The position numbers and the translations under genes are program-made. From the NCBI GenBank assembly GCA_017541205.1, contig JAFXZO010000002.1, positions 1 through 43,487 on the forward strand: DNA of 43,487 nt, written 5' to 3'. Below are positions 2,128 to 21,899 of the stretch, one piece after another. Every line of letters starts with the position of its first letter. Position 1 is the stretch's first letter. Source of the stretch: Clostridia bacterium (GTDB lineage: Bacteria > Bacillota > Clostridia > Christensenellales > Aristaeellaceae). A model generated the notes under the pieces. It was not told where the DNA came from and searched no databases. It worked only from the letters and a program-made list of their open reading frames with translations.

Positions 2128-2634
2128 TTGGTTCAGGATCAGCACCAGGAATATCTGGACGCCCTCATCACCCAATGGGAAAAGCCGATGCTCCGGCTGT
2201 GCTTCGCTTATCTGTGCGATACCGAGCTGGCGGAAGACGCCGTGCAGGAAACATTCTTCAAGGCCTGGAAAGGCTACGGTCGTTTTCGCGGAGAAGCAGA
2301 GGAGAAAACATGGCTGACGCGCATTGCCATCAATACATGCAAGGACCTGATGAAGAGCGCCTGGATGCGGAATACGGACCGGTTCGTTTCCCCTGATGCC
2401 CTGCCGGAAGGCTCCATCCCCTTTGACGAACGGGACGACACTGTTACGCGTGCGGTGCTGTCCCTGCCGCCGAAGATCAAGGAAGTGACGCTTTTGCACT
2501 GGTACCAGGGCATGACGCTGGAAGAAATGACCAAGGTGCTGCGGCTCCCCCGATCAACAGTCAACTATCGGCTCAAGAAAGCGAAAATGATGCTGAAGAA
2601 GGAACTGGAGGATTGGTATTATGAAGACGAATAA
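2128..2634 (+). CDS. ECF-type RNA polymerase sigma factor
   Basis: 168 residues from a TTG start with a strong RBS, AAAGGAGGG (2112-2119). Region 2 is recognisable at about residues 12-80 (LAEDAVQETFFKAWKGY..FRG...TWLTRIAINTCKD), and region 4 at about 105-160 (LSLPPKIKEVTLLHWYQGMTLEEMTKVLRLPRSTVNYRLKKA split by the helix-turn-helix). There is no region 1 or 3, as expected for the extracytoplasmic-function group. It overlaps the next gene by 14 bases, the usual arrangement of a sigma factor with its membrane-bound antagonist, so the pair probably senses an envelope signal. Autoregulation is likely, but no ECF-type promoter was identified with confidence. Confidence 0.92.
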   Translation: MVQDQHQEYLDALITQWEKPMLRLCFAYLCDTELAEDAVQETFFKAWKGYGRFRGEAEEKTWLTRIAINTCKDLMKSAWMRNTDRFVSPDALPEGSIPFDERDDTVTRAVLSLPPKIKEVTLLHWYQGMTLEEMTKVLRLPRSTVNYRLKKAKMMLKKELEDWYYEDE

Positions 2635-3586
2635 GGAGCAGCTGAAAGACGCCATGGATCGCCGGCTTTCCTTTCTGGACGATTTGCCTTCCTGCCGGGC
2701 CAAAGTCCAGTATCGAATCGCGCAGAAGGAGGAACCTGTGGTCATGAAGAAAAAGCTCTCTGTTGGTTTGGTGCTTGCGATGGTTCTGGTGCTGCTGTCC
2801 GTGTCGGCTCTGGCGGCGGGGCTGCTGCTCTCCTCAAGGGTGACCGCCACCCAGATCGCGGATCGGGAGCTGGAAAAGCAATACGGAGTCACGGCGGAAA
2901 TGCAGACGTTCTTCGCCCGTGAAGAAAAAGAGATGCCGGACGGCGCCGTTCAGGTAACCTACACCGGCGTCGGCGGGATGGAATACGTGCTGGGTTCCTA
3001 TACCGCGCTGGTCAAAGACGGAAAAGCGGAAATCAGCTGGAGCCATGATGGCGAAAATACTTCCGGCGGTTATGAGGCGGAAGCCTGGGGGCAGGAGCAG
3101 CTCCGGCAGATGATGGCGGATAGCCTGGTTCAGAAGAAAAAGGACGCCTTCATGCGCAAAGCCTCCGAGATCGGCGCAAAGCACAGCGTCATGGAGGATG
3201 ATTCGCCCTCCGAAGCGGACGAGAACTATTTCGCGCAGCGCGAAGCCGATAAAACGGCTGCCCTGAAAGCGCGCAAGCTGTCCGAAGATGAAATGATCCT
3301 GATTGGCAGGGAGTTCATCATCAGCAATTACGGGCTGAATGAAGAACAAATCGCCCGCATGGAACTGTACACCAACAGTTACGAGGACGAAGAAAACTGC
3401 TGGTATGAAATGATCAACGGCCAGCCCTGCTTCCAGGTGGAATACCTGCTGTACAATGATGAATACGAGACCGGGGATCTCACGAAACGCACGGAAATGA
3501 ACGGATACTACATCGTCTATGTGAACGTGGAAACCGGTACTGTGGAAGAATACGCATACAATTCCAGCCTGGCCGGGCAGGGTTGA
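2621..3586 (+). CDS. membrane-anchored partner of the sigma factor (putative anti-sigma)
   Basis: 321 residues. A short cytoplasmic N-terminus (about 1-44, charged, with RLSFLDDLP) is followed by one transmembrane helix (about 46-70) and an extracytoplasmic region of about 250 residues. The C-terminal stretch GYYIVYVNVETGTVEEYAY resembles a PepSY-like end. No zinc-binding HxxxCxxC motif of the classical anti-sigma domain is present, so the role rests on topology and on the 14-base overlap with the sigma gene. The acidic ectodomain could be the sensor. An intrinsic terminator 13 bases after the stop closes the two-gene operon. Confidence 0.75.
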   Translation: MKTNKEQLKDAMDRRLSFLDDLPSCRAKVQYRIAQKEEPVVMKKKLSVGLVLAMVLVLLSVSALAAGLLLSSRVTATQIADRELEKQYGVTAEMQTFFAREEKEMPDGAVQVTYTGVGGMEYVLGSYTALVKDGKAEISWSHDGENTSGGYEAEAWGQEQLRQMMADSLVQKKKDAFMRKASEIGAKHSVMEDDSPSEADENYFAQREADKTAALKARKLSEDEMILIGREFIISNYGLNEEQIARMELYTNSYEDEENCWYEMINGQPCFQVEYLLYNDEYETGDLTKRTEMNGYYIVYVNVETGTVEEYAYNSSLAGQG

Positions 3587-9318: not shown

Positions 9319-10256
9319 GCTTGTTTCCTCCTTTCCTTCGTGCTGACGGCATTTCAGCCGCCGCGAGGACAGGGAAGCGCCATCGGGAGATTCGTCGAGC
9401 CTCTCCCAAACGCGCCGCGCGGAGGTGTTTCCGCCGGCTGAACCACCGTTCCTTCGGTCTTTTCACCTGCCCGAAGGCCGGGACGGAAAAAGCGGCGCGC
9501 CCCTGCCTGCGGGGCGGGCCGGACGCTGCGGGCATTTCAGCCTTCGCATCCGTTCGCTTTCTTCGCCGGAGGCCGTCCTCGCCTCCGCGTTCCGTTCTGA
9601 TCGCTGCTTCCTTGCCCTCCCCGTTTCGGGAAGGGTATGCCAGAGAATGCTCCGCGCGGTTCCTCCCGTTGAAAAACCGTGCGTCATGCCGCGTTCTTCA
9701 CGCTGCCTGCCCTTCGTTCCCGTTCCGTTTCTTCCGGGCCAGGCCATGCCGCGCTTTTTTTCGCCGTTTAGATGCCGCGTTTCCCACGCCGGTCGTGACG
9801 GGCGCCTCTATGAACCGAAGGGAAAAAATGGATACTTCATCAGACGCGAAGATGATTCTTCAAAAAATGTTGCGTATTTGTCAGTCTACTTCATGTTCAA
9901 CCCATACTCCTTTCGGAACGGTTGCGCTTCGAAGAGCAAAAGATACTTCACGGCCTGGGGTGTCGCTTTCCCCTGCGGTGGTATTCCTTCATTTGCTTAT
10001 CCTGACATGCGCTGCTGTATGCGCCTATATCCAGGAGGAATTCCTTCGGTTCACCCAAGCGGGTCCTCTGGCTGCTTGGTCAGCCGGAAGGAAGGCGGAG
10101 CGCCCTCCTTCCGGGCTGCGTGTTCGTTTGTCAAGGTGCCTTTCGGCGGGAGGCTCTTTGCTTTCCCTGCCGACGCGCTTAGGATAGCACGAAACGGGCG
10201 GCTTGTCATTCAACCGGTAGTTTAACTTTTTTCAGCCGCTTTTGGTCAAAAATCAG
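9319..10256. other. about 0.94 kb without a supported gene, pyrimidine-rich on the plus strand
   Basis: Two long plus-strand frames (about 9321-10187 and 9425-10225) overlap here, but both give low-complexity Arg/Pro/Ser/Phe-rich peptides without domain signature. The lack of stops is explained by scarcity of A in stop contexts. Features seen: the sequence GCATTTCAGCC twice (near 9350 and 9532), several TTCCTTCG tracts, and a stable hairpin where GGAAGGAGGG faces CCTTCCTTCC near 10085-10112. On the minus strand TGACAA-16-TATCCT near 10185-10210 could start a long leader or a small RNA. I cannot match it to tmRNA, RNase P or a tRNA-like Y RNA. Confidence 0.5.
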
Positions 10257-10285
10257 TTGACATTTCCATCCGCCCGGCGTATAAT
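10257..10285 (+). promoter_or_regulatory. consensus sigma-A promoter of the XRE gene
   Basis: TTGACA (10257-10262), a 17-base spacer, and TATAAT (10280-10285): a perfect match to consensus. The leader to the start codon is about 135 bases. Confidence 0.9.
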
Positions 10286-10426
10286 CACCCTTGCTTCACC
10301 GCGGACGCTTCTGATACGATTACGCCCATCCCGATCCAAACGATCCCCGAGGATCGCTTCGCCGTTGCCTCTTTCCGTTTCGACGGGCTCGCGCCGTCGT
10401 TTCGTGCCGGAAGGGAGATGGAAGCA

Positions 10427-10798
10427 ATGTATACGCAAACCGCGTTCCCGGTCATCGATCTGGCGAAGACCGGCGCCAGCATCGAGCAGCACCGGCGCAG
10501 GGCCGGCCTGAGCGTGCGGGAGGTGCAGACCTATTTCGGGTTTGAGTACCCGCAGGCCATTTATAAGTGGCAGCACGGCGAGTGCCTGCCCACGGTGGAT
10601 AACCTGCTGGCCCTGGCAAGGCTCCTGCGGGTGTCCATGGAGGATCTCCTGGTGTACGACGACCAGGAGCATTTTTTTGCTCTTTTTTCAGCGCCCGAAG
10701 ACGCCGGCGGCGCTTCTTCCCGGGGGCCGTTATTCCGTTCCGCTTTTCTGCGCGAAAAGGCGGAGGACGCGTTCTTTATTCTGTACCTTGACGAATGA
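10427..10798 (+). CDS. XRE-family helix-turn-helix protein
   Basis: About 123 residues. The ATG at 10427 (MYTQTAFPVIDLA...) has GGGAG nine bases upstream; the in-frame ATG at 10418 overlaps that RBS and is less likely. Residues about 18-75 form the XRE/Cro helix-turn-helix: ASIEQHRRRAGLSVREVQ, then YPQAIYKWQHGECLPTVDNLLALARLL. The remaining 45 residues carry no recognisable domain. It has a perfect promoter, stands alone and lies 67 bases before the hxlR-type gene. Target genes are unknown. Confidence 0.85.
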   Translation: MYTQTAFPVIDLAKTGASIEQHRRRAGLSVREVQTYFGFEYPQAIYKWQHGECLPTVDNLLALARLLRVSMEDLLVYDDQEHFFALFSAPEDAGGASSRGPLFRSAFLREKAEDAFFILYLDE

Positions 10799-10806
10799 CT
10801 GATAAT

Positions 10807-10844
10807 ATTCTAAAATTGATGCAACATTCATTTTAGAATGTAAC
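10807..10844 (+). promoter_or_regulatory. promoter overlapped by a 10-bp inverted repeat (probable HxlR operator)
   Basis: ATTCTAAAAT (10807-10816) and ATTTTAGAAT (10830-10839) are perfect inverted repeats 13 bases apart. A second nested palindrome, ACATTC-ATTTTA-GAATGT, covers the right arm. TTGATG (10816-10821) and TGTAAC (10839-10844), 17 bases apart, form a plausible promoter inside it. This is the arrangement expected for autoregulation by the downstream HxlR protein. Confidence 0.65.
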
Positions 10845-10865
10845 AGCAAACTTGGAGGTGCACCT

Positions 10866-11201
10866 ATGCTGACGAAGGAAGAACTGCCGGATTGCCCGGT
10901 CGCTACTACTGTTCAATTGATCGGCAATAAGTGGAAACTGCTGATTTTGCGCAATCTGCTGGCCCGGCCCTGGCGCTTCAACGAGATGCTGCGCTCCATC
11001 CCCGGCATCAGCCAGAAGGTGCTGACGGATAACCTGCGGGTATTGGAAACGGACGGAATCATCATCCGCACGGTGTATCCGGAGGTGCCGCCCCGGGTGG
11101 AGTATTCTCTGAGCGAATTGGGCGATTCCATGCGGCCCATCATTCAGGCCATGGAAGCCTGGGGAAAAGGCTATCAGCAGATGGTAAGAGCAGCAGAATA
11201 A
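10866..11201 (+). CDS. HxlR-family winged-helix regulator
   Basis: 111 residues, RBS GGAGGTG (10854-10860). It has the HxlR signature: DCPVATTVQLIGNKWKLLILRNLL (split by the conserved GNKWK), FNEMLRSIPGISQKVLTDNLR and a wing ending VPPRVEYSLSELG. The cysteine in CPV near position 10 is the conserved residue that senses quinones, diamide or aldehydes in relatives such as YodB, CatR and HypR. It converges with the minus-strand operon encoding an MDR-type reductase and a PNPOx-like protein, and HxlR regulators commonly control such enzymes, so it may govern the island. A direct link is not shown. Confidence 0.9.
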   Translation: MLTKEELPDCPVATTVQLIGNKWKLLILRNLLARPWRFNEMLRSIPGISQKVLTDNLRVLETDGIIIRTVYPEVPPRVEYSLSELGDSMRPIIQAMEAWGKGYQQMVRAAE

Positions 11202-11217
11202 ACCAACTTGAACAAAC

Positions 11218-11253
11218 AGCGCCCAGTCGATAAGAGACTGAGCGCTTTTGTTT
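11218..11253. terminator. bidirectional terminator between convergent genes
   Basis: AGCGCCCAGTC (11218-11228) and GACTGAGCGCT (11236-11246) pair with one mismatch, followed by TTTTGTTT. On the minus strand the stem is followed by a GTTTGTT run. It separates the hxlR-type gene from the convergent PNPOx-like gene. Confidence 0.82.
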
Positions 11254-11800
11254 ATTCTGCTGCATCAAATTTATTGGGTAGATGGTAGGTCTTATTGGGT
11301 AGCTCCGGCGAGAAGGAAGCAAATTCTGCCCAGGCTTCGGTGAGATAGTAACCGATCACTACGTCCCGATGATTGCCAAACTGGCTTGTCAGCACCGGGC
11401 TGTTTTCAAAGCAGCGGTCGATGATCGCCTGATCTGTGGTGAAGTTCACCTTGCCGCCCAGCCGCACATAAGTCATGGTCTCCTGATCGCAGACACAAAG
11501 CTGGATGTAGGAATGGGCCAGCAATTCCTTGTAGGATGTATAGAAGGTGACGGTATCGAAGTACAGCACCCCGTCTTCCTCAAATTTGAACTCGATAGGC
11601 CGGATCTGCGGATTGCCGTCCAGGCCCAGGGTGGTGGCATATTGCAGCGGGAAGCGATGGAACACATCCACTACCACGCTGAGGCCGTCCTCATAATTCA
11701 GCGATTTGAAAAAGTCCAGCGTGGATTGTTCCGCATGGGCAGCCATCGTCATCCCTCCCAATACCATGATACAGAGCAGCAATGCAATCAGCTTCTTCAT
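11252..11800 (-). CDS. exported PNPOx-like (FMN-binding split barrel) protein
   Basis: 182 residues. A clear signal peptide (MKKLIALLLCIMVLGG..., cleavage near AHA/E) precedes a split-barrel domain: ATTLGLDGNPQIRPIEFKF, GVLYFDTVTFYTSYKELL and YVRLGGKVNF are typical of pyridoxamine-phosphate-oxidase-like flavin proteins. Members are nearly always cytoplasmic, so export is odd. It is the last gene of the minus-strand operon; its ATG overlaps the stop of the MDR-type gene (ATGA), which implies coupled translation. No lipobox is visible. It may bind a flavin or F420-like cofactor outside the cell and act on the same pathway as the upstream genes; the substrate is unknown. Confidence 0.82.
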   Translation of the reverse strand: MKKLIALLLCIMVLGGMTMAAHAEQSTLDFFKSLNYEDGLSVVVDVFHRFPLQYATTLGLDGNPQIRPIEFKFEEDGVLYFDTVTFYTSYKELLAHSYIQLCVCDQETMTYVRLGGKVNFTTDQAIIDRCFENSPVLTSQFGNHRDVVIGYYLTEAWAEFASFSPELPNKTYHLPNKFDAAE

Positions 11801-12744
11801 TCGACCACCACCACGATCTTTCCGTCTACGCCCTTGTCCTGGGCCATGCAGGCCTCCCGGATGGTGTTCAGGGTAAACATCGCCCCGTATTCGGGCACAA
11901 TGCGCTTTTCATTCAGGAAAGCAAACAAAGCGTCCACGATTTCCTGGGTGGGATAATTGCTGAAAAAGCCAGTGAGATAGACACCGTTGGGAATATCCTT
12001 GATGGGATCGAAATTGTTGAGGGCATACACGCCGCCCAGAATGCCGGTATCACAGACGATGCCGCCTTTTTCCACGGCAAGCAGCGTGTCCTTCAGGTTT
12101 CGCGGGCCTACCAAGTCCAGCGCTTTGGTAACACCCTGCACCTTGCCCTGCAATTCCCCATCATCCAACACCTGCTCGTCCGCAGCGGCGATCAAGGGCA
12201 GCTTGGCTTCCCGATGGGTGGTGGCAATAACTTTGCAGCCCAAGGCTTTGCCGATCTGGATGGCGGCATAACCCAACGCGCAGGTAGCACCGCGGATCAG
12301 CAGGATGTCTTCTTTCTTTAATTGCAGGCACTCAAACAGGCTGCCCCAGGCGGTAAAGAAGGTTTCCGGCACGGCAGCCAGAGAAGCCCAATCCAACTGC
12401 GTTTCCACAGGAAAGACATGATGAATGGGCAAAAGCGCATATTCGGCATAGCTGCCGTCAAAGCTGCGGCCCATGCCACCCATGAGGGCGATCACCTTCT
12501 GGCCCTGCCGCCAGCCGCTGTCAGAGGGATCGGCGATCTCACCCACACACTCGATGCCGGGGATCACGGGCTTTTGAATATAAGGCGCTTTGATCTCCTC
12601 ATACCGCAAAATCTGTTCGGAATGGTTCATACCGAAGCCCTTCACCTTTACCAGTACCCAGCCGGACTTGACTGTAGGAATGGGTACTTCGGTAAGCCGA
12701 ACCGCCTCGCCATGGGTCACGGCGCTGATCTGCATCGCTTTCAT
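11797..12744 (-). CDS. MDR-superfamily NAD(P)H:quinone oxidoreductase-like protein
   Basis: About 315 residues from the ATG at 12744, with GAGGAGG upstream. The N-terminal GroES-like fold is recognisable (GFGMNHSEQILR, PGIECVGEIADPSD, GQKVIALMGG) and the Rossmann part carries LIRGATCALGYAAIQIGKAL, a variant nucleotide-binding motif. The structural zinc cysteines of classic alcohol dehydrogenases are absent, which fits the quinone reductase branch. Its start overlaps the radical SAM stop (ATGA) and its stop overlaps the next start (ATGA), so the three genes are tightly coupled. Reduction of a reactive carbonyl or quinone, or a redox step tied to peptide maturation, is inferred. Confidence 0.88.
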   Translation of the reverse strand: MKAMQISAVTHGEAVRLTEVPIPTVKSGWVLVKVKGFGMNHSEQILRYEEIKAPYIQKPVIPGIECVGEIADPSDSGWRQGQKVIALMGGMGRSFDGSYAEYALLPIHHVFPVETQLDWASLAAVPETFFTAWGSLFECLQLKKEDILLIRGATCALGYAAIQIGKALGCKVIATTHREAKLPLIAAADEQVLDDGELQGKVQGVTKALDLVGPRNLKDTLLAVEKGGIVCDTGILGGVYALNNFDPIKDIPNGVYLTGFFSNYPTQEIVDALFAFLNEKRIVPEYGAMFTLNTIREACMAQDKGVDGKIVVVVE

Positions 12745-13814
12745 AGCGTTTCCTCCTCGCATAGCTTTTCCCCGGTCAAATCGTTCTTCGTTTTCCAGCA
12801 TTGAGGGTCTACGTCGTAGAAATCTCCATGGGCTCCACTGGCTACCGCCGGGCAGCCCCGGCACCAGGCTTTCAGCTCGCACCTGGCGCACTTCTTAAAC
12901 TTGTCGTATTCCCGGTACTGTTCCATTTCGCATACCCACAGATCGGCCAGGCGATCCTGGAATGCGTTGCCCACTTTGCTGTTCTGCACCCGGCGGCAGG
13001 CGAACACGTCGCCATTGGGCAGGATGGTCATATGGCAGTTGCCGCAGTTGCAGCCGCCGTAGATCATATCGGGATCGGCGTTGGCCGGCAGCTTGAACTC
13101 CCCGGTCTCATACTGGTACAGCGTCCACAGGTGATCCTTGCGGTTGAAATAGGTGTCGTATCCCGCCGCCTCATAGGCCTTGAATTTGGCGTCGCAGATT
13201 TCCAGCAGATGCCGGTATTCCTGGGGCGTCATGCCCGTGTCTTTTTCCTCGCTGGTGGGACAGTAACGGGCAAAAGCATAGACGTTGGCTCCTGCCTTCA
13301 CCACTTCATCGATGATGCCGGGTACTTCGTGGATGTTGGTGCCGCTCACCGTGGTCATCACTACGCTGCGGATGCCTGCGTTGTTGATGGTCTGAATTTT
13401 CTCAAGCGTCGTCCGGTAGCTGCCGGGCTTGCGGAACCAATCATGGGTCTGCTCCAGACCGTCAATGGACAGCTGATACTTTTCACAACCCAGCAGCTTC
13501 ATGCGCTGGCAGACCTCGTTCGTCAAATGGAAGGGGTTGCCCATGATGGTGAAGGGAATCTGTTTGACTGCCAGCAGCTCCAGCAACGGCCAGAAATCCT
13601 TATGCAGGATAGGATCGCCACCGGTAATATAGAAATAAGGCAGCCGGTCATACATAGCACAGAAATCCTCGCAATTAGCCACCACCTCCTGCATCTGCTC
13701 CCAGGTCATGCTGTCCAGGCGCTTGCAATTATCCTCAGCAAAGATATAGCAATGCTTGCACCGCTGGTCACAGTCGTCGGTGATATGCCATTGGAAAGCG
13801 AAATACTGTTTCAT
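12741..13814 (-). CDS. radical SAM/SPASM peptide maturase of an ACGX-type system
   Basis: About 357 residues from the ATG at 13814 (MKQYFAFQWHITDDC...), with AGTGAGG nine bases upstream; a GTG five codons earlier is less likely. The radical SAM motif is CDQRCKHCY (CxxxCxxC), followed by YFYITGGDP. The C-terminal SPASM domain has CNCGNCHMTILPNGDVFACRR and later CARCELKAWCRGCPAVA...DPQC, enough cysteines for two auxiliary Fe-S clusters. The gene directly follows a Cys-rich ACGA-repeat peptide, which fits a RiPP maturase forming thioether or similar crosslinks. I recall that the TIGRFAM collection names an ACGX radical SAM/SPASM system; I could not check this. The next gene overlaps by ATGA. Confidence 0.92.
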   Translation of the reverse strand: MKQYFAFQWHITDDCDQRCKHCYIFAEDNCKRLDSMTWEQMQEVVANCEDFCAMYDRLPYFYITGGDPILHKDFWPLLELLAVKQIPFTIMGNPFHLTNEVCQRMKLLGCEKYQLSIDGLEQTHDWFRKPGSYRTTLEKIQTINNAGIRSVVMTTVSGTNIHEVPGIIDEVVKAGANVYAFARYCPTSEEKDTGMTPQEYRHLLEICDAKFKAYEAAGYDTYFNRKDHLWTLYQYETGEFKLPANADPDMIYGGCNCGNCHMTILPNGDVFACRRVQNSKVGNAFQDRLADLWVCEMEQYREYDKFKKCARCELKAWCRGCPAVASGAHGDFYDVDPQCWKTKNDLTGEKLCEEETL

Positions 13815-13840
13815 GACTGAATGCCTCACTTAATCTCAGG

Positions 13841-13872
13841 ATGCTCCGGCAGCCAGGGCGTAGCCGGAGCAT
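13841..13872 (-). terminator. stem-loop between precursor peptide and maturase
   Basis: ATGCTCCGGC and GCCGGAGCAT form a perfect 10-bp stem around a 12-base loop. On the minus strand it lies between the peptide stop (13893) and the maturase start (13814). No T-tract follows, so partial termination or protection of the precursor mRNA 3' end is more likely than full termination. Such devices raise the peptide-to-enzyme ratio in RiPP operons. Confidence 0.65.
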
Positions 13873-13892
13873 GGGTAGGTCGAAAAAGAAAA

Positions 13893-14132
13893 TTACTTGT
13901 CGCCAGCGCCACAGGCAGCTCCGCATGCAGCGGGCTTTTTTTCCTCGGCGGGCTTGTCAGCAGCACCGCAGGCGGCGGGCTTTTCCTCAGCGGGCTTGTC
14001 AGCAGCGCCACAGGCGGCACCGCAGGCAGCGGGCTTCTTCTCTTCGGCGGGCTTATCGCTCGCGCCGCAGGCAGCGCCACACGCCGCAGGAGCCATCTGC
14101 ACATTCCAGGAAGCCAGATTCTTCAGAGCCAT
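13893..14132 (-). CDS. Cys-rich ACGA-repeat peptide, likely RiPP precursor
   Basis: 79 residues with RBS AAGGAGG ten bases before the ATG. A short leader-like start (MALKNLASWNVQMAPA) is followed by seven ACGA units in blocks of 2, 2, 1 and 2, separated by linkers of the form (S/A)DKPAEEK(K)PA, ending GDK. All seven cysteines are in ACGA units. The linkers are charged and proline-containing, the repeat blocks small and flexible. It is the first gene of the operon and lies just before a radical SAM/SPASM gene, the normal RiPP arrangement. No double-glycine leader or exporter is nearby, so the product may remain inside the cell, for example as a metal-binding peptide. The reaction and product are unknown. 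Confidence 0.88.
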   Translation of the reverse strand: MALKNLASWNVQMAPAACGAACGASDKPAEEKKPAACGAACGAADKPAEEKPAACGAADKPAEEKKPAACGAACGAGDK

Positions 14133-14202
14133 GTGTTCGTCCTCCTTATCAGATTCGGGAGGCTATCCCGTGTTTTCACAATACAGGAAAAAAGATGACA
14201 GC

Positions 14203-14276
14203 ACAAGTACGCACCTTTTTGTAACTACCCCACAGTTATAAAAAGGTAACTATGTAATAAAAAGGTGCGTACTTGT
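14203..14276. promoter_or_regulatory. 18-bp perfect inverted repeat over divergent promoters
   Basis: ACAAGTACGCACCTTTTT (14203-14220) is repeated in inverted orientation at 14259-14276, with 38 bases between. The outer end of each arm (ACTTGT) supplies the -35 of a divergent promoter: TTGTGC-17-TATTGT toward the ACGA peptide and TTGTTT-18-TATGCT toward the repeat protein. A smaller imperfect palindrome, TTGTAACT-N7-AGTTATAA, lies in the centre. This strongly suggests one regulator controlling both transcripts; HxlR or XRE proteins of the island are candidates. Confidence 0.75.
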
Positions 14277-14355
14277 TTTTGGTTTTTCACGTCTGTTATG
14301 CTATGTGCGTCGGCAGGAAAGCCGATGAGAAAAATGTCGAAGGAGACGAAACAAA

Positions 14356-15087
14356 ATGAAAAAGCTGATCGCTCTGCTGCTGACCGCCGTAATGGCGCTG
14401 TCCCTGCTGGCTGTTACCGCTTCCGCTGAGGAGGAAGCAAATTGGGCATACGGTGTAACGATTGAAGGTGTGGGCACCATCTACTATGCCAAGGCGTACT
14501 TCTCCCAGGAAAACATCGTAAACCCCTTGACCGCCGCTGCTTATACCGCTGATGAGATCGCTGTCATCGTGGATGGCGCTGCCGCTGATCATGAAGCCTA
14601 TACCTTCCTGCTTCCCGGTGATGCTTTCCTGGGCATGGGCGGTTTCTGGTACGATCAGGATAACACCGCTGCCATCGTGAGCCATGCCGATCCTCTGACG
14701 ATGGATGAAAACGGCGTGTTCTCCACTGCGGAAGGTGAGCAGGTTGCCTCTCCCATTGTCAACTGGGCCTTTGGCGTGACCATCGAGGGTGTGGGCACCA
14801 TTTACTATGGCCGTGAATACTTCGCCAAGGAAGGAATCGTCAATCCTCTGACTGCCGCGCCCTATACGGCAGAAGAAATCGCCACCATCGTGGATGGCGC
14901 TGTGCAAGGCGCTGAAGGCTACACCTTCGATGTGCCTGCTGCCGCGCTGCTGGGCATGAACGGCTTCTGGTATGATGCTGCCAATACCGCCGCCATCACC
15001 AGCCATGCAGACCCGCTGACCATGAATGACGCCGGCGTTTTTTCCACTGCGGACGGCGTAGAGGTCGCTACTCCTATTGCGGAATAA
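14356..15087 (+). CDS. secreted protein of two tandem 107-residue repeats, family not recognised
   Basis: 243 residues. The signal peptide (about 1-24, MKKLIALLL..., cleavage near ASA/E) starts like that of the exported PNPOx-like protein in the divergent operon. The mature part is two repeats, residues 29-135 and 136-243, roughly 65-70% identical. Each has a GVTIEGVGTIYY start, a (I)VNPLTAA.YTA.EIA.IVDGA segment, a LGM.GFWYD motif and an ADPLTM...GVFSTA end. There are no cysteines and no anchor. RBS AAGGAG precedes the ATG. It shares a putative operator with the ACGA-peptide operon. It could bind a ligand or metal outside the cell, but no function can be assigned. Confidence 0.8.
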   Translation: MKKLIALLLTAVMALSLLAVTASAEEEANWAYGVTIEGVGTIYYAKAYFSQENIVNPLTAAAYTADEIAVIVDGAAADHEAYTFLLPGDAFLGMGGFWYDQDNTAAIVSHADPLTMDENGVFSTAEGEQVASPIVNWAFGVTIEGVGTIYYGREYFAKEGIVNPLTAAPYTAEEIATIVDGAVQGAEGYTFDVPAAALLGMNGFWYDAANTAAITSHADPLTMNDAGVFSTADGVEVATPIAE

Positions 15088-15108
15088 AGCGCCCAATAGA
15101 TTATCCAG

Positions 15109-15140
15109 GCTCTGGCAGAAAAATGCCAGAGCTTATGTTG
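15109..15140 (+). terminator. terminator of the secreted repeat gene
   Basis: GCTCTGGCA (15109-15117) and TGCCAGAGC (15124-15132) form a perfect 9-bp stem with an A-rich loop, followed by TTATGTTG, a weak T-tract. Confidence 0.75.
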
Positions 15141-15174
15141 TCTGTAAGCAGTTACAACACGCGCGCGCCGACGC

Positions 15175-15203
15175 TTGCGCGCGGGCCTGTATTCTGGTAT
15201 ACT
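15175..15203 (+). promoter_or_regulatory. probable promoter of the DUF1934 operon
   Basis: TTGCGC (15175-15180), 17-base spacer, TATACT (15198-15203), 22 bases before the start codon at 15225 and just ahead of the GGGAGG RBS. Confidence 0.65.
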
Positions 15204-15224
15204 GTTTAATGGGAGGGTATCCTT

Positions 15225-15662
15225 ATGGAAAAGAAACAGCAAGTGCTATTATCCGTCATGGGCTGGACCCATGAGGACGATGATCCAAGCGATTCCGTCC
15301 GGCTGCTGACCACCGGCACCATGACGGGCGGCAAGGACGCCTGGCGCATCGATTATACCGAAACACAGCCGGACAACGAAAGCAGCGACGTCACCCTGCT
15401 GATGGACAAGGGGGTTGTGACCATGCAGCGCAGCGGCACGTTCGCCACCAGCATGGTGTTTGAGCAGGGCCGGCGTTTTGAGGGCAGCTATCGCACCCCG
15501 TATGGCGATCTGGCGATGGGCGTGTACCCCACGCATGTGAAGTATCAGGTGGAGGATGGGCCGGTCGGCGAAGTGGATCTGACGTATCAATTGGATCTGC
15601 AGGGCCAGTTTGCCGCGATGCATGAGCTGCGCATCCGCTTTTGCCCGTCCGGCAGGCAATGA
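15225..15662 (+). CDS. DUF1934 (YwiB-like) calycin-fold protein
   Basis: 145 residues, RBS GGGAGGG before the ATG. The pattern of short beta strands with EGSYRTPYGDLAMGVYPTHVKYQ and LTYQLDLQG matches the DUF1934/YwiB family of small cytoplasmic beta-barrel proteins, whose biochemical role is not established. It overlaps the following gene by ATGA. In many Firmicutes the gene lies near argS; here it does not. Confidence 0.82.
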   Translation: MEKKQQVLLSVMGWTHEDDDPSDSVRLLTTGTMTGGKDAWRIDYTETQPDNESSDVTLLMDKGVVTMQRSGTFATSMVFEQGRRFEGSYRTPYGDLAMGVYPTHVKYQVEDGPVGEVDLTYQLDLQGQFAAMHELRIRFCPSGRQ

Positions 15663-16135
15663 GCGCGCTGGACGCCTGGCGGCGGCATGCCCGCGCGGCG
15701 ATCCCCCGGGGGTTTCTCAGGCGGGATCGGGGGGACGGGCTGTTCATCAGCGATTATCCCCGGTATCCGGACAGCGGCCCGGTAACGGACGCGCTGCGTC
15801 AGGCCGGGTTCCGGGTGCGGCTGGACGGGCAGCTTGCGGTGCTCGGCCTTTCCCCGGCCGGGATCGAAGCGCAGGCGGCGTCCCTGTGCGGGGAAGCGCG
15901 GCCGACGGATGAAACGCTGTACCTGTGGGCGCTGGCCGGCCGGCTGATACGAAGCGGAGGCGCGGCGACGCAAGCGGATATGCCCCACATCCATTTCACC
16001 TTAAAATGCCTGGACGCGGGCGAGCTGAGCCGCCTGGAAAAAGTGCTGTCCCCTGCTTCGGCGCTGGGCCAGCGGACGCGCCATCCCCTGCCCGCCGTGA
16101 TCGGCCGGCTGATGATGGACCATTTGAATCATTGA
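15659..16135 (+). CDS. hypothetical protein, translationally coupled to DUF1934
   Basis: About 158 residues starting MSALDAWRRHARAAIP from the ATG at 15659, which overlaps the DUF1934 stop. The sequence is Arg-, Ala- and Leu-rich with no transmembrane segment, signal peptide or motif I recognise. Segments such as GDGLFISDYPRYPD and a predicted helical C-terminus (CLDAGELSRLEKVLSPASALGQ) suggest a folded cytoplasmic protein. The overlap and conserved coding frame support it as a real gene. Function unknown. Confidence 0.7.
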   Translation: MSALDAWRRHARAAIPRGFLRRDRGDGLFISDYPRYPDSGPVTDALRQAGFRVRLDGQLAVLGLSPAGIEAQAASLCGEARPTDETLYLWALAGRLIRSGGAATQADMPHIHFTLKCLDAGELSRLEKVLSPASALGQRTRHPLPAVIGRLMMDHLNH

Positions 16136-17521: not shown

Positions 17522-17590
17522 TTGCATTCTTACCCAAGTTGACGTATAATATATAAGATTCTGCCTCGATGGATCGGTTTTGTATACAAA
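17522..17590 (+). promoter_or_regulatory. promoter and GTATAC-centred palindromic operator of the SDR/oxoamine synthase operon
   Basis: TTGCAT (17522-17527), 17 bases, TATAAT (17545-17550). About 28 bases after the -10 lies the perfect 12-bp palindrome TTTGTATACAAA (17579-17590), flanked by GG and CC, where a bound repressor would block elongation. The same core occurs upstream of the sugar importer at 36002-36011. Palindromes of this form are typical of GntR-family regulators. Confidence 0.7.
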
Positions 17591-17634
17591 CCTTTCCAAA
17601 ATGGTGGAATAACCGCCGGGACGGGAGGTTCGCC

Positions 17635-18468
17635 ATGAAAAGCGGTGAAAAAACCCAGGTGGTATGGATCACCGGCGCGTCCAGCGGCCTGGGGCTGCAT
17701 ACGGCCCAGGCGTTGGTCCGCGCGGGATTTACCGTGGTGGCCGGGGCCCGTTCCTTCGGGAAGGGCAAGACGGTTCCCGGCTGCGAGTGCCTGCCGCTGG
17801 ACGTAACGGACGCGGAGAGCATCCGCGCTTTTACGCAGGGGGCGCTTTCCCTGCACGGGGCGCCGGATGCGCTGGTCAACTGCGCGGGCATGCTGGTTTT
17901 AGGGGCTTGCGAAAGCTACGCGCTCAGCGAGCTTCGCCAGGTGATGGAGACCAACTTCTTCGGCCAGGCGGCGATGATTTCCGCCGCGCTGCCGCTGATG
18001 CGCCAAAAAGGCCGCGGCCGGATCGTGAATTTTTCCTCCATCAACGGGCTGCTGGGCATCCCCTTTGAAGGGGCGTATACCGCAAGCAAGCACGCGGTGG
18101 AGGGGTATTCGGAGTGCCTGGCGCTGGAGGTTAAGCCCTTCCATATCGAAGTGATGCTGGTGGAGCCGGGGGATCATCGGAGCGGCAGCAAGCTGTACCG
18201 CCGCCATTCCCAAGGCATGGGCGACGATTCGCCCTACAGGGCGGCCTTTGATCTGGGCACCCGGATGATCGCCCATGACGAAGAAAACGGCTCTGACCCG
18301 GACAGGCTGGGCGATAAGATCGCCAAAGCCCTGCGCCGCCGCCGCCTGCCCCGCAGGCTGCGGGTGGCGAAAATGGACCAGCATCTTGCCGTGCTCCTGC
18401 ACGATGTGCTTCCCAATCGGCTGTTTGAAAGGATCATCGGCAGCTATTACAGCAAACCCATCCAGTGA
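17635..18468 (+). CDS. short-chain dehydrogenase/reductase, candidate 3-keto-base reductase
   Basis: 277 residues from the ATG at 17635, with GGGAGG seven bases upstream; the longer frame from 17569 crosses the operator and lacks an RBS. The classical SDR pattern is complete: TGASSGLG (cofactor site), NCAG, the catalytic Ser in NFSSING and YTASK (YxxxK). The C-terminal part (LRRRRLPRRLRVAKMDQHLAVLLHD region) is basic and hydrophobic, suggesting contact with membrane or a lipid substrate. The next gene, 89 bases on, encodes an acyl ligase-ACP-oxoamine synthase. That pairing parallels serine palmitoyltransferase with 3-ketosphinganine reductase, so reduction of an acyl aminoketone is the likely reaction. 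This is an inference. Confidence 0.88.
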   Translation: MKSGEKTQVVWITGASSGLGLHTAQALVRAGFTVVAGARSFGKGKTVPGCECLPLDVTDAESIRAFTQGALSLHGAPDALVNCAGMLVLGACESYALSELRQVMETNFFGQAAMISAALPLMRQKGRGRIVNFSSINGLLGIPFEGAYTASKHAVEGYSECLALEVKPFHIEVMLVEPGDHRSGSKLYRRHSQGMGDDSPYRAAFDLGTRMIAHDEENGSDPDRLGDKIAKALRRRRLPRRLRVAKMDQHLAVLLHDVLPNRLFERIIGSYYSKPIQ

Positions 18469-18557
18469 CTGCGCCGGAGCGCAGCGGCTATCCTGCCAGA
18501 GAACCGGGAAAGCGGAACGCGGCCCGGAGGCGACCAAAGGGAATCGAGGGAACAAGC

Positions 18558-21500
18558 ATGAGTGAAGTGCTCGCCCGCAGCGAACGATTGCGGGAGAAAA
18601 TGACGCTGGAAAACTTATTTGAAATCATCAGCGGCGACGGCGAAAAGGTGGCCGCCCGGTATCTGGACGGGAACGAGGAAAAAGCCGTCACCTACGCCGA
18701 ATACCGCAAGCGCGCCTTTGCCTGCGCCAAGGAGCTGCGAAAAAAGCTTGGCGAACAAAACAAGGGCAAGTTCGTCGGCATCCAGGCCGATACCTGCCCT
18801 TCCTGGTTTTTTCTGTTCTGGGGCGTGATCGCCGCGGGCTATAACGCGGTGCTCATGGATTTCACCCTGAACGATGAAATGACCGCCTATATCCTGCGCC
18901 AGGCCGGGGCCATCGCCCTGATCACCAAGACGCCCAGGCAGCTGAACGGCAATGTTACGCAGTTCACCATCGCCCAAATGGAACAGCTTTCCGACGCTTC
19001 GGGCTTCCAGCCGTCGTTTGGCGATATGGTGGCCCTGTGCACCTCGGGCACCACGGACACCAGCCGCGTCTTCGTTTATAACGCGCAGGCCGTGTGCGCC
19101 CAGGTGCTCAACGCCGAAATGCTCTATCACGCCAACAAGCGCATCATCTGCGATGAGCCGCGGCGGCAGCTGGCGTTTTTGCCGTATCATCACATTTTCG
19201 GTTTTATGGTGTGCCTCCAGTGGATCCATTTCCTGGGCTATGAAACGGTGTACTTAAAGGACCGCAGCCCCAAAACCATCCAGGAGACCGCCCAGCGCTT
19301 CAAGATCACCCACCTGATGGCCGTGCCCCTGCTCGCCAACAACCTGTCCGTGGCGCTGGGCAAAAAGGTCGCCAAGGAAACGCGCTTCAAGCGTGCCGCC
19401 TTTAAGACGCTGCGCGGGCTGTCCCTGGCGCTCCAGAGCGTCGCCCCCGGGTTCGGGCTGGATTTTGCCAGGAACGTGCTTTTTAAGTCCGTCACCTCCC
19501 AGATCCTGGGCCCCGACGTCCGCTGCATCATCCTGGGCGGCAGCCATACGCCCAAGGAGCATATGCGCACGCTCAGCGCCCTGGGGTATTTCACCGTTTC
19601 CGGCTTTGGCATGACGGAAACGGGCATCACCTCCGTCGAAACCAACATGAACGTCATCACCCGCACCTCCGGGTCCGTCGGCCGTCCGCTGGCCAGCGCC
19701 GAATACCGGGTGCAGAGCGACGGCGAAAAATCCAACCGCGGCGAAATGTATATCCGCGGCAACACCATCCATACGGGGCGGCTGGTGGAGGGCAAGCTCC
19801 TGCCGCCGGGCCTGGATGAAGAGGGCTGGTTCCGCACCGGCGACGTGGTGCGCCTGGAAAAGGGCAACCGCATGTATGTGGAAGGGCGCGCCAAGGACGT
19901 CATCATCAACGAATCCGGCGAAAACGTGTATCCCGACGAGATCGAGGACGCGTTCGGCGCGCTGGAGGGCGTGGATCAGTTCTGCGTGCTGGGCCTGAAA
20001 TCCCGCAAGAAGGAAAAAGAAGAAAAGGGCATCCTCTCCCATATCCCGCATCCGCATCTGCCGGGCAAGAAAAAGGCGGCGGTGGATTATGAGGACATCA
20101 CCCTGGTCATCAACGTGGGCCAGCACTATAAGGACGACGAGTACATTTCCGGCATCATGGCCCAGGTGCGCAAGATCAACGGCGCCCTGCCCGCCTTGAA
20201 GCGCGTCAGCCGCGTCCTGGCGACCCCCGAAAAGTTCCAGACCGCCGGCGGCATCAAGGTCAAGCGCCTCGCGCTCAAAAAGGAAATCGAGGAAAACAAG
20301 CTGGCCTACCGCGATATCGATTTTAACCGCATGGCCGAAGCCTCCCAGGAGCCCAAGCCCCTCGTGCAGCAGGAAAACACGCCCTCCGATCTGCAATTGG
20401 AGGAAATCAAGCAAAAGGTGCGCCGCGTGTACGCCGAAACGCTTGATGTCCAGCCGGACCAGATCAGGGACGACGCGCACTTCATCGACGAGTTGGGCGG
20501 CGACAGCCTGCAGGTGCTGGGCGTGAGCCTCAAGATCGAGGAGCAGTTCAACGTGCTGATCCCCACCGAGGAATACGGCAAGTGCACCACGGTCAACGAC
20601 CTGTCCGCCCTGCTGTACGCCAAGGTGCGCGGCAACGTGGCCTATGAGAGCAGCGCGCCCGAAAGCCAGGAGCCCGTCACGCCCATTACCCGCTTTGAGG
20701 ATTCCCCGGAATACCAGGCGTTTCAAAAGCGCTATGAATCGCTGATGGGCGAAGGCCAGGAAAACCCTTACTTCGTCGCCCATGATTCGCCGCTGCTGGA
20801 CAAGAGCTTCGTGGACGGCCAGTGGATGCTGGATTTCGGCTCCTACAACTATGTTGGCATGAGCGGCCGGGAGGAAACGAAGGCCGCCGCCAAGGCCGCC
20901 ATCGACAAGTACGGCACCTCTGCTTCCGGCAGCCGCCTGCTTGCCGGTGAAAAGACGCTGCATAAGGAATTGGAGGCCGCCATCGCCGAATGGAAGCACA
21001 CCGAAAGCGCGCTGGTGCTGGTGGGCGGGCACTCCACGAACGTGACCTGCGTCGGCAATTTCTGCGGCAAGGGCGATCTGATCGTCTACGACGCCATTGC
21101 CCATAACTCCATCGAGCAGGGCTGCCGCCTTTCCCAGGCGACCGCCAAGCCCTTCCCGCACAGCGACGTCAAGGCGCTGGAAAGCATCCTGCGCAATCAG
21201 CGTCATAAGTTCGGCAAGGTGCTCATCGTGATCGAAGGCGCGTATTCCATGGACGGCGATATCGCGCCGGTGCCCGAGTTCGTGGCGCTCAAAAAGAAAT
21301 ACGGCTGCTTCCTGATGGTGGACGAGGCGCACTCCGCCTGCGTGATCGGCAAGACCGGCGGCGGCGTGGACGAATATTTCGGCCTGGCCCCGGACGACAT
21401 CGACATCAAGTACGGCACGCTCAGCAAGGGCCTGGGCACCTGCGGCGGTTATCTGGCCGGCAGCCGCGCGATCATCGATTATATGCGCTATAACCTGCCC

Positions 21501-21899
21501 GGGTTCGTCTTCTCCGTGGGCATTTCGCCGCCCCTTGCCGCGGCAAGCCTGGAGGCCATCAAGCTTTTGCGCAGCGATCCCACCATCATGGAACGGCTGC
21601 ACCGCAACATCAAATGCTTCATGGAAGAAGCGCATAAGCGCCATTTCAACACCTGCCTGGCCGGCGAAACGGCCATCCTGCCCATCCTGGTCGGCAAGGA
21701 CGAGGACGCCTGGGAGCTGAGCAACCGCCTGCGCAGGAAGGGCGTGATCGTGCCCCCCGCCGTGTACCCCGCCGTGCCTAAGAACAAGGCCCGCCTGCGT
21801 TTCTGCGTCATCAGCGAGCATCAGCCCGAGGAAATCGTCGAAGCGCTGGATAAGCTGCAGGAATGCGCCAAGGAAGCGGGCATCCAATTGCCGGAGTGA
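18558..21899 (+). CDS. tri-domain acyl-adenylate ligase / ACP / alpha-oxoamine synthase fusion
   Basis: 1113 residues from ATG 18558 (MSEVLARSERL...). Residues about 1-595 are an AMP-forming acyl ligase: CTSGTTDTSRVFVY (phosphate loop, about 160, lacking the usual GxPK), GFGMTETG, WFRTGDVV and GGIKVKR near its end. Residues about 620-705 are an acyl carrier protein with GGDSLQ, the phosphopantetheine serine being S650. Residues about 735-1113 are a PLP alpha-oxoamine synthase: NYVGMSG, YGTSASGSRLLAG, VDEAHS and YGTLSKGLG with PLP lysine K957. Such synthases (SPT, KBL, BioF, HemA) condense an acyl thioester with an amino acid and release CO2. All steps from free acid to aminoketone could occur on one chain. 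Product class (sphingoid, sulfonolipid-like or other) is unknown. Confidence 0.92.
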   Translation: MSEVLARSERLREKMTLENLFEIISGDGEKVAARYLDGNEEKAVTYAEYRKRAFACAKELRKKLGEQNKGKFVGIQADTCPSWFFLFWGVIAAGYNAVLMDFTLNDEMTAYILRQAGAIALITKTPRQLNGNVTQFTIAQMEQLSDASGFQPSFGDMVALCTSGTTDTSRVFVYNAQAVCAQVLNAEMLYHANKRIICDEPRRQLAFLPYHHIFGFMVCLQWIHFLGYETVYLKDRSPKTIQETAQRFKITHLMAVPLLANNLSVALGKKVAKETRFKRAAFKTLRGLSLALQSVAPGFGLDFARNVLFKSVTSQILGPDVRCIILGGSHTPKEHMRTLSALGYFTVSGFGMTETGITSVETNMNVITRTSGSVGRPLASAEYRVQSDGEKSNRGEMYIRGNTIHTGRLVEGKLLPPGLDEEGWFRTGDVVRLEKGNRMYVEGRAKDVIINESGENVYPDEIEDAFGALEGVDQFCVLGLKSRKKEKEEKGILSHIPHPHLPGKKKAAVDYEDITLVINVGQHYKDDEYISGIMAQVRKINGALPALKRVSRVLATPEKFQTAGGIKVKRLALKKEIEENKLAYRDIDFNRMAEASQEPKPLVQQENTPSDLQLEEIKQKVRRVYAETLDVQPDQIRDDAHFIDELGGDSLQVLGVSLKIEEQFNVLIPTEEYGKCTTVNDLSALLYAKVRGNVAYESSAPESQEPVTPITRFEDSPEYQAFQKRYESLMGEGQENPYFVAHDSPLLDKSFVDGQWMLDFGSYNYVGMSGREETKAAAKAAIDKYGTSASGSRLLAGEKTLHKELEAAIAEWKHTESALVLVGGHSTNVTCVGNFCGKGDLIVYDAIAHNSIEQGCRLSQATAKPFPHSDVKALESILRNQRHKFGKVLIVIEGAYSMDGDIAPVPEFVALKKKYGCFLMVDEAHSACVIGKTGGGVDEYFGLAPDDIDIKYGTLSKGLGTCGGYLAGSRAIIDYMRYNLPGFVFSVGISPPLAAASLEAIKLLRSDPTIMERLHRNIKCFMEEAHKRHFNTCLAGETAILPILVGKDEDAWELSNRLRRKGVIVPPAVYPAVPKNKARLRFCVISEHQPEEIVEALDKLQECAKEAGIQLPE

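Follow-up and report, generated by a model that had tools for sequence, protein, structure and literature searches.

What does a short peptide that carries all its cysteines in repeated ACGA units do beside a radical SAM enzyme, and what does the enzyme do to it? The question is raised by a locus of a Clostridia bacterium (assembly GCA_017541205.1), analysed within a stretch of 43,487 nucleotides of contig JAFXZO010000002.1 (positions 1 to 43,487; hereafter the window). The first gene, acgA (13893..14132, minus strand), encodes a 79 aa ACGX-repeat precursor peptide with seven ACGA units in a 2-2-1-2 arrangement, separated by the linkers DKPAEEKKPA, DKPAEEKPA and DKPAEEKKPA, and each of its seven cysteines lies inside one of these units. 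It starts with a leader-like N-terminus, MALKNLASWNVQMAPA (14085..14132, minus strand), and a Shine-Dalgarno-like AAGGAGG (14141..14147, minus strand, read from the sequence) stands 8 nt ahead of its ATG. The second gene, acgM (12741..13814, minus strand), begins 78 nt past the acgA stop, the range 13814–14132 comprising the peptide and the intergenic gap as far as the acgM start codon, and encodes an enzyme of 357 aa with the motif CDQRCKHC and SPASM cysteines, in which Radical_SAM and SPASM are the only Pfam domains to pass their cut-offs. A sequence-only reading of this DNA had described the peptide with its seven cysteines and a CxxxCxxC/SPASM enzyme, which ORFs and profiles confirm, and had pointed to an ACGX system in the TIGRFAM collection. 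That system exists, and an NCBIfam search places AcgA in TIGR04341 (ACGX-repeat peptide; 57.7 bits, E 1.3e-15, curated cut-off 28) and AcgM in TIGR04340 (rSAM_ACGX; 592 bits, E 2.6e-178, curated cut-off 400). It had also known of no characterised product, and searches by family names, gene names and accessions found no paper on the product or role of ACGX; the pair is a named but uncharacterised family, and a well conserved one. The same reading mentioned neither the CX3D/E spacing nor the redox operon, hairpin and operator-like site described below. As far as literature searches show, the redox-operon setting, the control site, the hairpin and a set of diverged precursors missed by the peptide model are new.

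The precursors were compared among relatives, most of the ACGX loci being found, according to record titles, in Clostridia from guts and rumens. When the window genome (assembly 84.9% complete) was searched with TIGR04341 this locus was the single match, and of 396 genomes sampled from the order 5 gave a score over the model's cut-off. Among 79 precursors with a usable start (L007, L051 and L059 have broken 5' ends and were omitted) 77 begin with a leader-like sequence of the MALSNLxGW type. Glycine follows 474 of their 482 cysteines, a count that skips cysteines before position 60 in L013 and L106 and whose eight exceptions include a few from upstream extensions of mis-set starts, and in 453 of the 474 alanine precedes the cysteine. 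The number of ACG units ranges from 2 to 10 per precursor (5 to 9 in the window and ten close relatives), and in 193 pairs of adjacent units the spacing is exactly four residues. When all 82 precursors were used, Asp or Glu was found at position +4 of 261 of the 288 unit-terminal cysteines, defined as those with no second Cys at +4, the acid fraction being 0.00 at +3 and 0.01 at +5; in AcgA of the window all four unit-terminal cysteines show this CX3D/E motif. In the 193 doublets the first cysteine has Cys and not an acid at +4, and the precursors of L003, L103 and L108 have no acid at +4 of any unit-terminal cysteine. Two diverged precursors are missed by the TIGR04341 model: that of L009, where the +4 acid is retained in all eight units (mostly ACGAKDPAP), and an archaeal one on a methanogen plasmid (P0001), whose seven units all carry Glu at +3.

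Cysteine conservation in the enzyme and its family relationships were studied in 25 of about 90 enzyme sequences. Ten cysteines are invariant (C15, C19, C22, C255, C257, C273, C309, C312, C318 and C321) and C339 is nearly so. When families were ranked for the window AcgM individually, the second-best was SbtM, the thio(seleno)oxazole maturase (TIGR04082), with 163.6 bits, which is under the curated cut-off of 350 and covers only model positions 197–515 of 516. The next were heme b synthase (116 bits), TIGR04053 (115 bits) and NirJ1 (99 bits), the first and last of these being enzymes of tetrapyrrole synthesis and not of peptides, while the known thioether-forming families reached 54–65 bits (StsB 65, SkfB and PapB 54–55). 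For the PapB ranthipeptide maturase family, NF047865, the score was 53.8 bits against a cut-off of 340. The SbtM profile matched all 25 members, and over the whole set its best E-value was second after rSAM_ACGX. No SbtM was found in 299 Bacillota genomes at E 1e-60, in a search run without a positive control, and since this left none for a tree the kinship of SbtM and AcgM is one of profile scores.

These scores bear on the modification chemistry, for which the sequence-only reading had proposed a thioether and a loss of 2 Da per unit. SbtM is described in a review as taking four hydrogens off Cys or Sec substrates to give a thiooxazole (PMC11002830), and reports on captophorins describe the same ring as made by MNIO enzymes with O2 on EGKCG repeats, with a loss of 4 Da (PMC13097082, PMC12538549). 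As SbtM ranks second and the thioether families score 54–65 bits, a loss of 4 Da per cysteine is no less likely than the 2 Da of that proposal, and the thioether product is not established. The most likely product of AcgM, as judged from profiles and motifs, would be a 5-thiooxazole on each modified cysteine. It is placed somewhat above the thioether, by a small margin, because Ala-Cys-Gly is found in nearly every unit while the +4 acid is found in part of them only, and because of the profile kinship with SbtM.

The alternative that survives best is that AcgM makes a ranthipeptide, linking each unit-terminal cysteine to the acid at +4 in a CX3D/E thioether with a loss of 2 Da each, which would give a chain of small rings and leave the first cysteine of each doublet free, perhaps as a metal ligand. 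The position of the acid, with next to none at +3 and +5 and with conservation even in the diverged L009 precursor, is the chief point in favour of this reading, and PapB is reported to make the same link from Cys to Asp of CX3D and to accept Glu as well, with a loss of 2 Da (PMC9413430). It does not account for the 193 doublets whose first cysteine faces another cysteine, for the three precursors lacking any +4 acid or for the archaeal precursor with its acid at +3 instead, and AcgM scores 54 bits with the PapB family (cut-off 340) against 163 with SbtM; this alternative is a serious one, though less likely than not.

The pairing of the two genes was analysed in 91 loci: 80 from a scan of genome contigs, ten more, and the window. 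The set excludes L012, with a shortened enzyme, and includes L013, with an enzyme fragment under the cut-off; the loci are interrelated and the counts are not independent. An ACG-repeat peptide was found upstream of the enzyme in 82 of the 91, with a gap between acgA and acgM of 20 to 821 nt (median 102, 79 loci). Among the nine without a peptide, three are cut by a contig end (L076, L101 and L104) and three lack the 5' end of the enzyme gene (L066, L102 and L109); L102 seems to have lost the enzyme start along with the peptide, and L109, entered as peptide-less, has 61 unread bases upstream. The remaining three are real exceptions. In L002, which has an enzyme of 73% identity followed by the quinone oxidoreductase gene, no ACGX peptide was found within 1.4 kb upstream, nor genome-wide by the peptide model or a paired-unit DNA pattern. 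The enzymes of L010 and L011 are 54–55% identical to the window enzyme, and in L010 the gene directly upstream encodes a membrane protein that has a Cys/Ser/Gly tail at its end and scores weakly with TPM (18.3 bits, under the cut-off of 22.1). The sequence-only reading had asked whether related genomes carry the enzyme without any ACGX-like peptide: the pairing holds in most loci, and the strict rule that the enzyme always comes with such a peptide is ruled out by L002, L010 and L011. Within the 396 genomes sampled from the order the enzyme passes its cut-off in 11 and the peptide in 5, and all five peptides adjoin an enzyme, one of these being a fragment. A phage origin of the locus was considered and rejected, a single weak match being found among 50,697 phage records and two fragments in viral contigs.

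The same data address a second alternative, that AcgA simply works unmodified, as a metallothionein-like or redox-buffer peptide, and that AcgM has another substrate. The number of ACG units, varying between 2 and 10, the low-complexity, Cys-rich sequence, the redox operon described below and the tetrapyrrole-synthesis enzymes among the families nearest to AcgM would all suit such a peptide. The adjacency of peptide and SPASM enzyme in 82 of 91 loci and the seemingly joint loss of the peptide and the enzyme start in L102 argue against it, and so does the fact that, among enzymes of at least 70% identity whose start and upstream sequence are intact, L002 alone was seen to lack the peptide; this alternative is held to be unlikely.

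The gap between the two genes contains in the window a stem-loop (13841..13872, minus strand) with a perfect 10-bp stem, ATGCTCCGGC/GCCGGAGCAT, and a 12-nt loop, which covaries in relatives. Folding was performed for 70 of 82 gaps, those of 40–220 nt, and all 70 were more stable than 20 mononucleotide shuffles were on average, with a perfect stem of at least 8 pairs in 41. A consensus structure of 18 aligned gaps, chosen by hand for the covariation analysis, has 95.5% of its cells paired, and 27 cells show a two-sided change with pairing kept; neither value was reached in any of 500 shuffles, and sliding the partner strand of the hairpin abolishes the pairing signal. Of five covariation measures two did not beat the shuffles, namely the number of pairs with a two-sided change (35 of 500) and further pair types (499 of 500). 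The hairpin probably serves in processing or attenuation, giving more precursor than enzyme.

Downstream of the pair the window contains a gene for a quinone-oxidoreductase-like dehydrogenase of zinc/MDR type (11797..12744, minus strand; profile and Pfam matches), its ATG overlapping the acgM stop (ATGA), followed by one for a PNPOx-like flavin split-barrel protein (11252..11800, minus strand; profile and Pfam matches), which has a signal-peptide-like N-terminus and whose ATG overlaps in turn the stop of the quinone-oxidoreductase-like gene, so that the three genes are linked by two ATGA overlaps. The neighbourhoods of 80 relatives were analysed by tblastn with internal controls, and the quinone-oxidoreductase cluster of the window was found to follow acgM in relatives also. 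A nitroreductase or a quinone oxidoreductase gene is located directly downstream of the pair in 69 of the 75 loci with enough sequence. Between 0.9 and 6.5 kb downstream, in 62 loci, the search revealed a nitroreductase in 42, a PNPOx-ferredoxin protein in 32, a sirtuin of the SirTM class in 26, and a quinone oxidoreductase and a macrodomain in 16 each, while none of the five redox/ADP-ribose queries hit the upstream control stretch (0 of 55 for each). The sirtuin shows a sequence match to SirTM (PDB 5a3a, E 5e-69) and has no Pfam match, and the macrodomain matches PDB 8rsi (E 3e-75). In 51 of 68 loci the 2.7 kb upstream contain a divergent gene of the HxlR/DUF24 family, compared with 0 to 5 loci in every other 2-kb bin; 17 of the 68 lack it. 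On a plasmid of Roseburia sp. 831b, where NCBI annotates acgA and acgM, the pair has the same order as in the window and stands in the series HTH regulator, acgA, acgM, nitroreductase, 4Fe-4S protein, protein-ADP-ribose hydrolase and Sir2-type protein.

The neighbourhoods leave little room for an exported RiPP, a bacteriocin or signal produced under stress by coincidence, which appears very improbable: several of the SPASM families that AcgM weakly matches work on antimicrobial peptides and the leader-core architecture would fit such a product, but no transporter or protease holds a fixed position among the neighbour clusters common to at least four loci, ABC genes are scattered over both flanks in 15 of 81 neighbourhoods, and the annotated Roseburia operon has neither transporter nor protease, an MFS gene being found upstream only past three genes.

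When the regions upstream of acgA were analysed, 80 of 82 being long enough, the 10-mer AAGTACGCAC (reverse GTGCGTACTT) was found in 66, a count in which L059 is scored as site-less though its broken frame reads through one copy, compared with at most 11 of 80 for the commonest 8-mer in 20 mononucleotide shuffles. With one mismatch allowed the GTGCGTACTT site is found in 71 of the 80 (five being added by the mismatch). The position is narrow, 62 of the 66 plus-strand copies beginning 76–92 bases ahead of the peptide, and exact copies also precede acgA on Roseburia and Subdoligranulum plasmids, in Roseburia between the regulator and acgA. In the window there are two operator-like copies in opposite orientation: CAAAAAGGTGCGTACTTGTG preceding acgA (14202..14221, minus strand, from the motif search) and a second (14258..14277, plus strand, two mismatches to the searched 20-mer) which faces a divergent ORF of 243 aa (14356..15087, plus strand) with a signal-peptide-like start, two similar halves and no Pfam match, possibly under the control of this second copy. 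A genome-wide regulon was considered and dismissed for the window genome, where the site is found at this locus only (up to 3 mismatches of the 20-mer). An RNA family as explanation of the upstream feature was also rejected, as there is no Rfam match within 10000–16000 and the motif also lies beside HxlR genes elsewhere.

A search for TACAAAAANGTGCGTACTT with one mismatch in the 396 genomes gave 15 sites in 13 genomes, the reversed control giving 2 genomes. Two of the 15 are ACGX loci, and of the 13 others, several of which are close relatives of one another, nine flank an HxlR gene and one precedes a macrodomain-SirTM pair. In three ACGX loci (L056, L057 and L094) HxlR is replaced by a LysR gene and there is no site within two mismatches. 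Because most of the sites outside ACGX loci flank HxlR genes and the LysR loci lack the site, it most likely belongs to the HxlR regulator; in L098, where HxlR is present, the best site has three mismatches. The HxlR gene of the window (10866..11201, plus strand) does not lie beside the site but at the opposite end of the operon, in convergent orientation, and no copy of the site was found in its own promoter region. Its product belongs to the HxlR/DUF24 family by PF01638, has a sequence match to PDB 7bze (E 3e-27), and in the alignment of the window and its relatives an N-terminal cysteine (Cys10 in the window) is conserved in 48 of 49 sequences, with one gap, and followed by proline in 48 of 49. 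This Cys-Pro is not known as the pattern of Bacillus subtilis HxlR and disfavours formaldehyde sensing of the kind known from that protein, although residues alone do not settle the signal. DUF24 regulators with an N-terminal cysteine and the nitroreductase YodC are described in connection with thiol, quinone and HOCl stress (PMC6943732), and SirTM operons have been tied to oxidative stress (PMC4518038). Regulator, control site and partner genes point to thiol/electrophile stress, which gives the family a testable function with concrete inducers to try.

Taken together these data suggest, at roughly even odds (about 0.5), that acgA and acgM form the core of a thiol/electrophile-stress operon whose product is a cytosolic, stress-induced poly-Cys RiPP. 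The HxlR/DUF24 regulator with its single conserved N-terminal cysteine would act at the GTGCGTACTT site, as repressor or activator, and reaction of the cysteine under quinone, aldehyde, hypochlorite, disulfide or metal stress would turn the operon on. The hairpin between the two genes would presumably raise the output of precursor above that of enzyme. AcgM would recognise the short leader of the MALSNLxGW type and proceed along the peptide, oxidising the cysteine of each Ala-Cys-Gly to what would be a 5-thiooxazole, the ring that SbtM forms and that the MNIO enzymes of captophorins form with O2. The product, probably cytosolic since neither exporters nor proteases occupy a constant position in the neighbourhood, would serve as a repetitive sink for soft metals, electrophiles or redox equivalents beside the nitro- and quinone reductases and the SirTM/macrodomain pair.

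Among known systems the locus is an instance of the NCBIfam ACGX system, both window proteins passing the curated cut-offs and their gene order being that of the Roseburia sp. 831b plasmid. With PapB ranthipeptides it shares the CX3D/E spacing at unit-terminal cysteines but differs in the enzyme (54 bits against a cut-off of 340). SbtM, the second-best family for AcgM, likewise acts on peptide Cys or Sec as described (PMC11002830), but AcgM lies far under its cut-off (163 against 350 bits) and the model is covered in part. To operons with SirTM and a macrodomain and to DUF24 regulons of the YodB/HypR type the ACGX loci are similar in the SirTM and macrodomain proteins, the flavin/NADPH reductases and the Cys-bearing HxlR-type regulator, the difference being that in ACGX loci a Cys-repeat peptide and its enzyme occupy the first two positions; GcvH-L and LplA2 were not recognised among the shared neighbour clusters of these loci. 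RiPPs are not otherwise known from operons for ADP-ribosylation by SirTM. The closest likeness in the peptide itself is to captophorins, bufferins and oxazolin, which have short Cys-Gly repeats (EGKCG compared with ACGA), are Cys-rich and belong to an oxidative or metal stress context, captophorins being described with absorbance at about 305 nm, copper binding, a preference for Cys-Gly and induction by stress (PMC13097082, PMC12538549). Their enzyme is an O2-using MNIO, whereas that of ACGX is a radical SAM enzyme, and in the window genome (84.9% complete) no MNIO (PF05114) was found, with controls positive in 2 of 14. ACGX may even be, though this is less likely than not, a captophorin of anaerobes: an O2-independent, radical-SAM-made poly-thiooxazole under thiol-sensing HxlR control, produced together with nitro/quinone reductases and SirTM ADP-ribosylation, which would act as an intracellular metal/electrophile buffer in gut and rumen bacteria and has a diverged form on a methanogen plasmid. 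If the thiooxazole is correct, two unrelated enzyme chemistries, one with and one without oxygen, would have converged on stress peptides of one type, and the captophorins of Pseudomonadota, which bind copper, would have an equivalent among anaerobic gut bacteria.

When loci related to the window's acgA-acgM pair were compared, the precursor of L009 (genome G272) was found to carry eight ACG units, all single and in most cases within the sequence ACGAKDPAP; it is missed by the TIGR04341 model of the ACGX-repeat precursor AcgA, and the adjoining enzyme is 53% identical to the window's radical SAM/SPASM enzyme, AcgM. The locus L002 (genome G067) harbours an orphan AcgM with a quinone oxidoreductase gene downstream, and no ACGX peptide turned up near this enzyme or, in searches with the peptide model and the paired-unit pattern, in the rest of the genome. 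In L010 an AcgM-like enzyme (492 bits) begins ~60 nt after the gene of a membrane protein (2587-3549, minus strand; TPM-domain match below threshold) with the C-terminal end SSCSSGSSCSSCSSCSSCGSGG, a tail that may serve as substrate for what would be a sister enzyme to AcgM.

An archaeal ACG-repeat locus is situated on a plasmid of Methanosphaera sp. ISO3-F5 (L143:2440-6024) and contains an HxlR-like regulator, a precursor with CG[TGS]E units and the palindrome AAGTAACCATTTGGTTACTT upstream of it, an enzyme split into two pieces in the annotation, a zinc-binding dehydrogenase and a PNPOx-ferredoxin-like protein. AcgM fragments, ~85% identical to the window enzyme, are also located at the ends of two contigs listed as viral (L144 and L145), which may be host DNA.

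Elsewhere in the window, a short-chain dehydrogenase (17569-18468) adjoins a large fusion of AMP-binding ligase, acyl carrier and class I/II aminotransferase domains (18465-21899), and the protein at 7819-9318 matches DUF2828 and DUF7788.

The second copy of the acgA control site (14258-14277, plus strand) faces a divergent gene (14356-15087), which may be co-regulated with acgA and encodes an exported-looking protein of two similar halves without any family match. Another inverted repeat (10807-10839), ATTCTAAAAT ... ATTTTAGAAT, precedes the window's HxlR gene and differs from the acgA control site.
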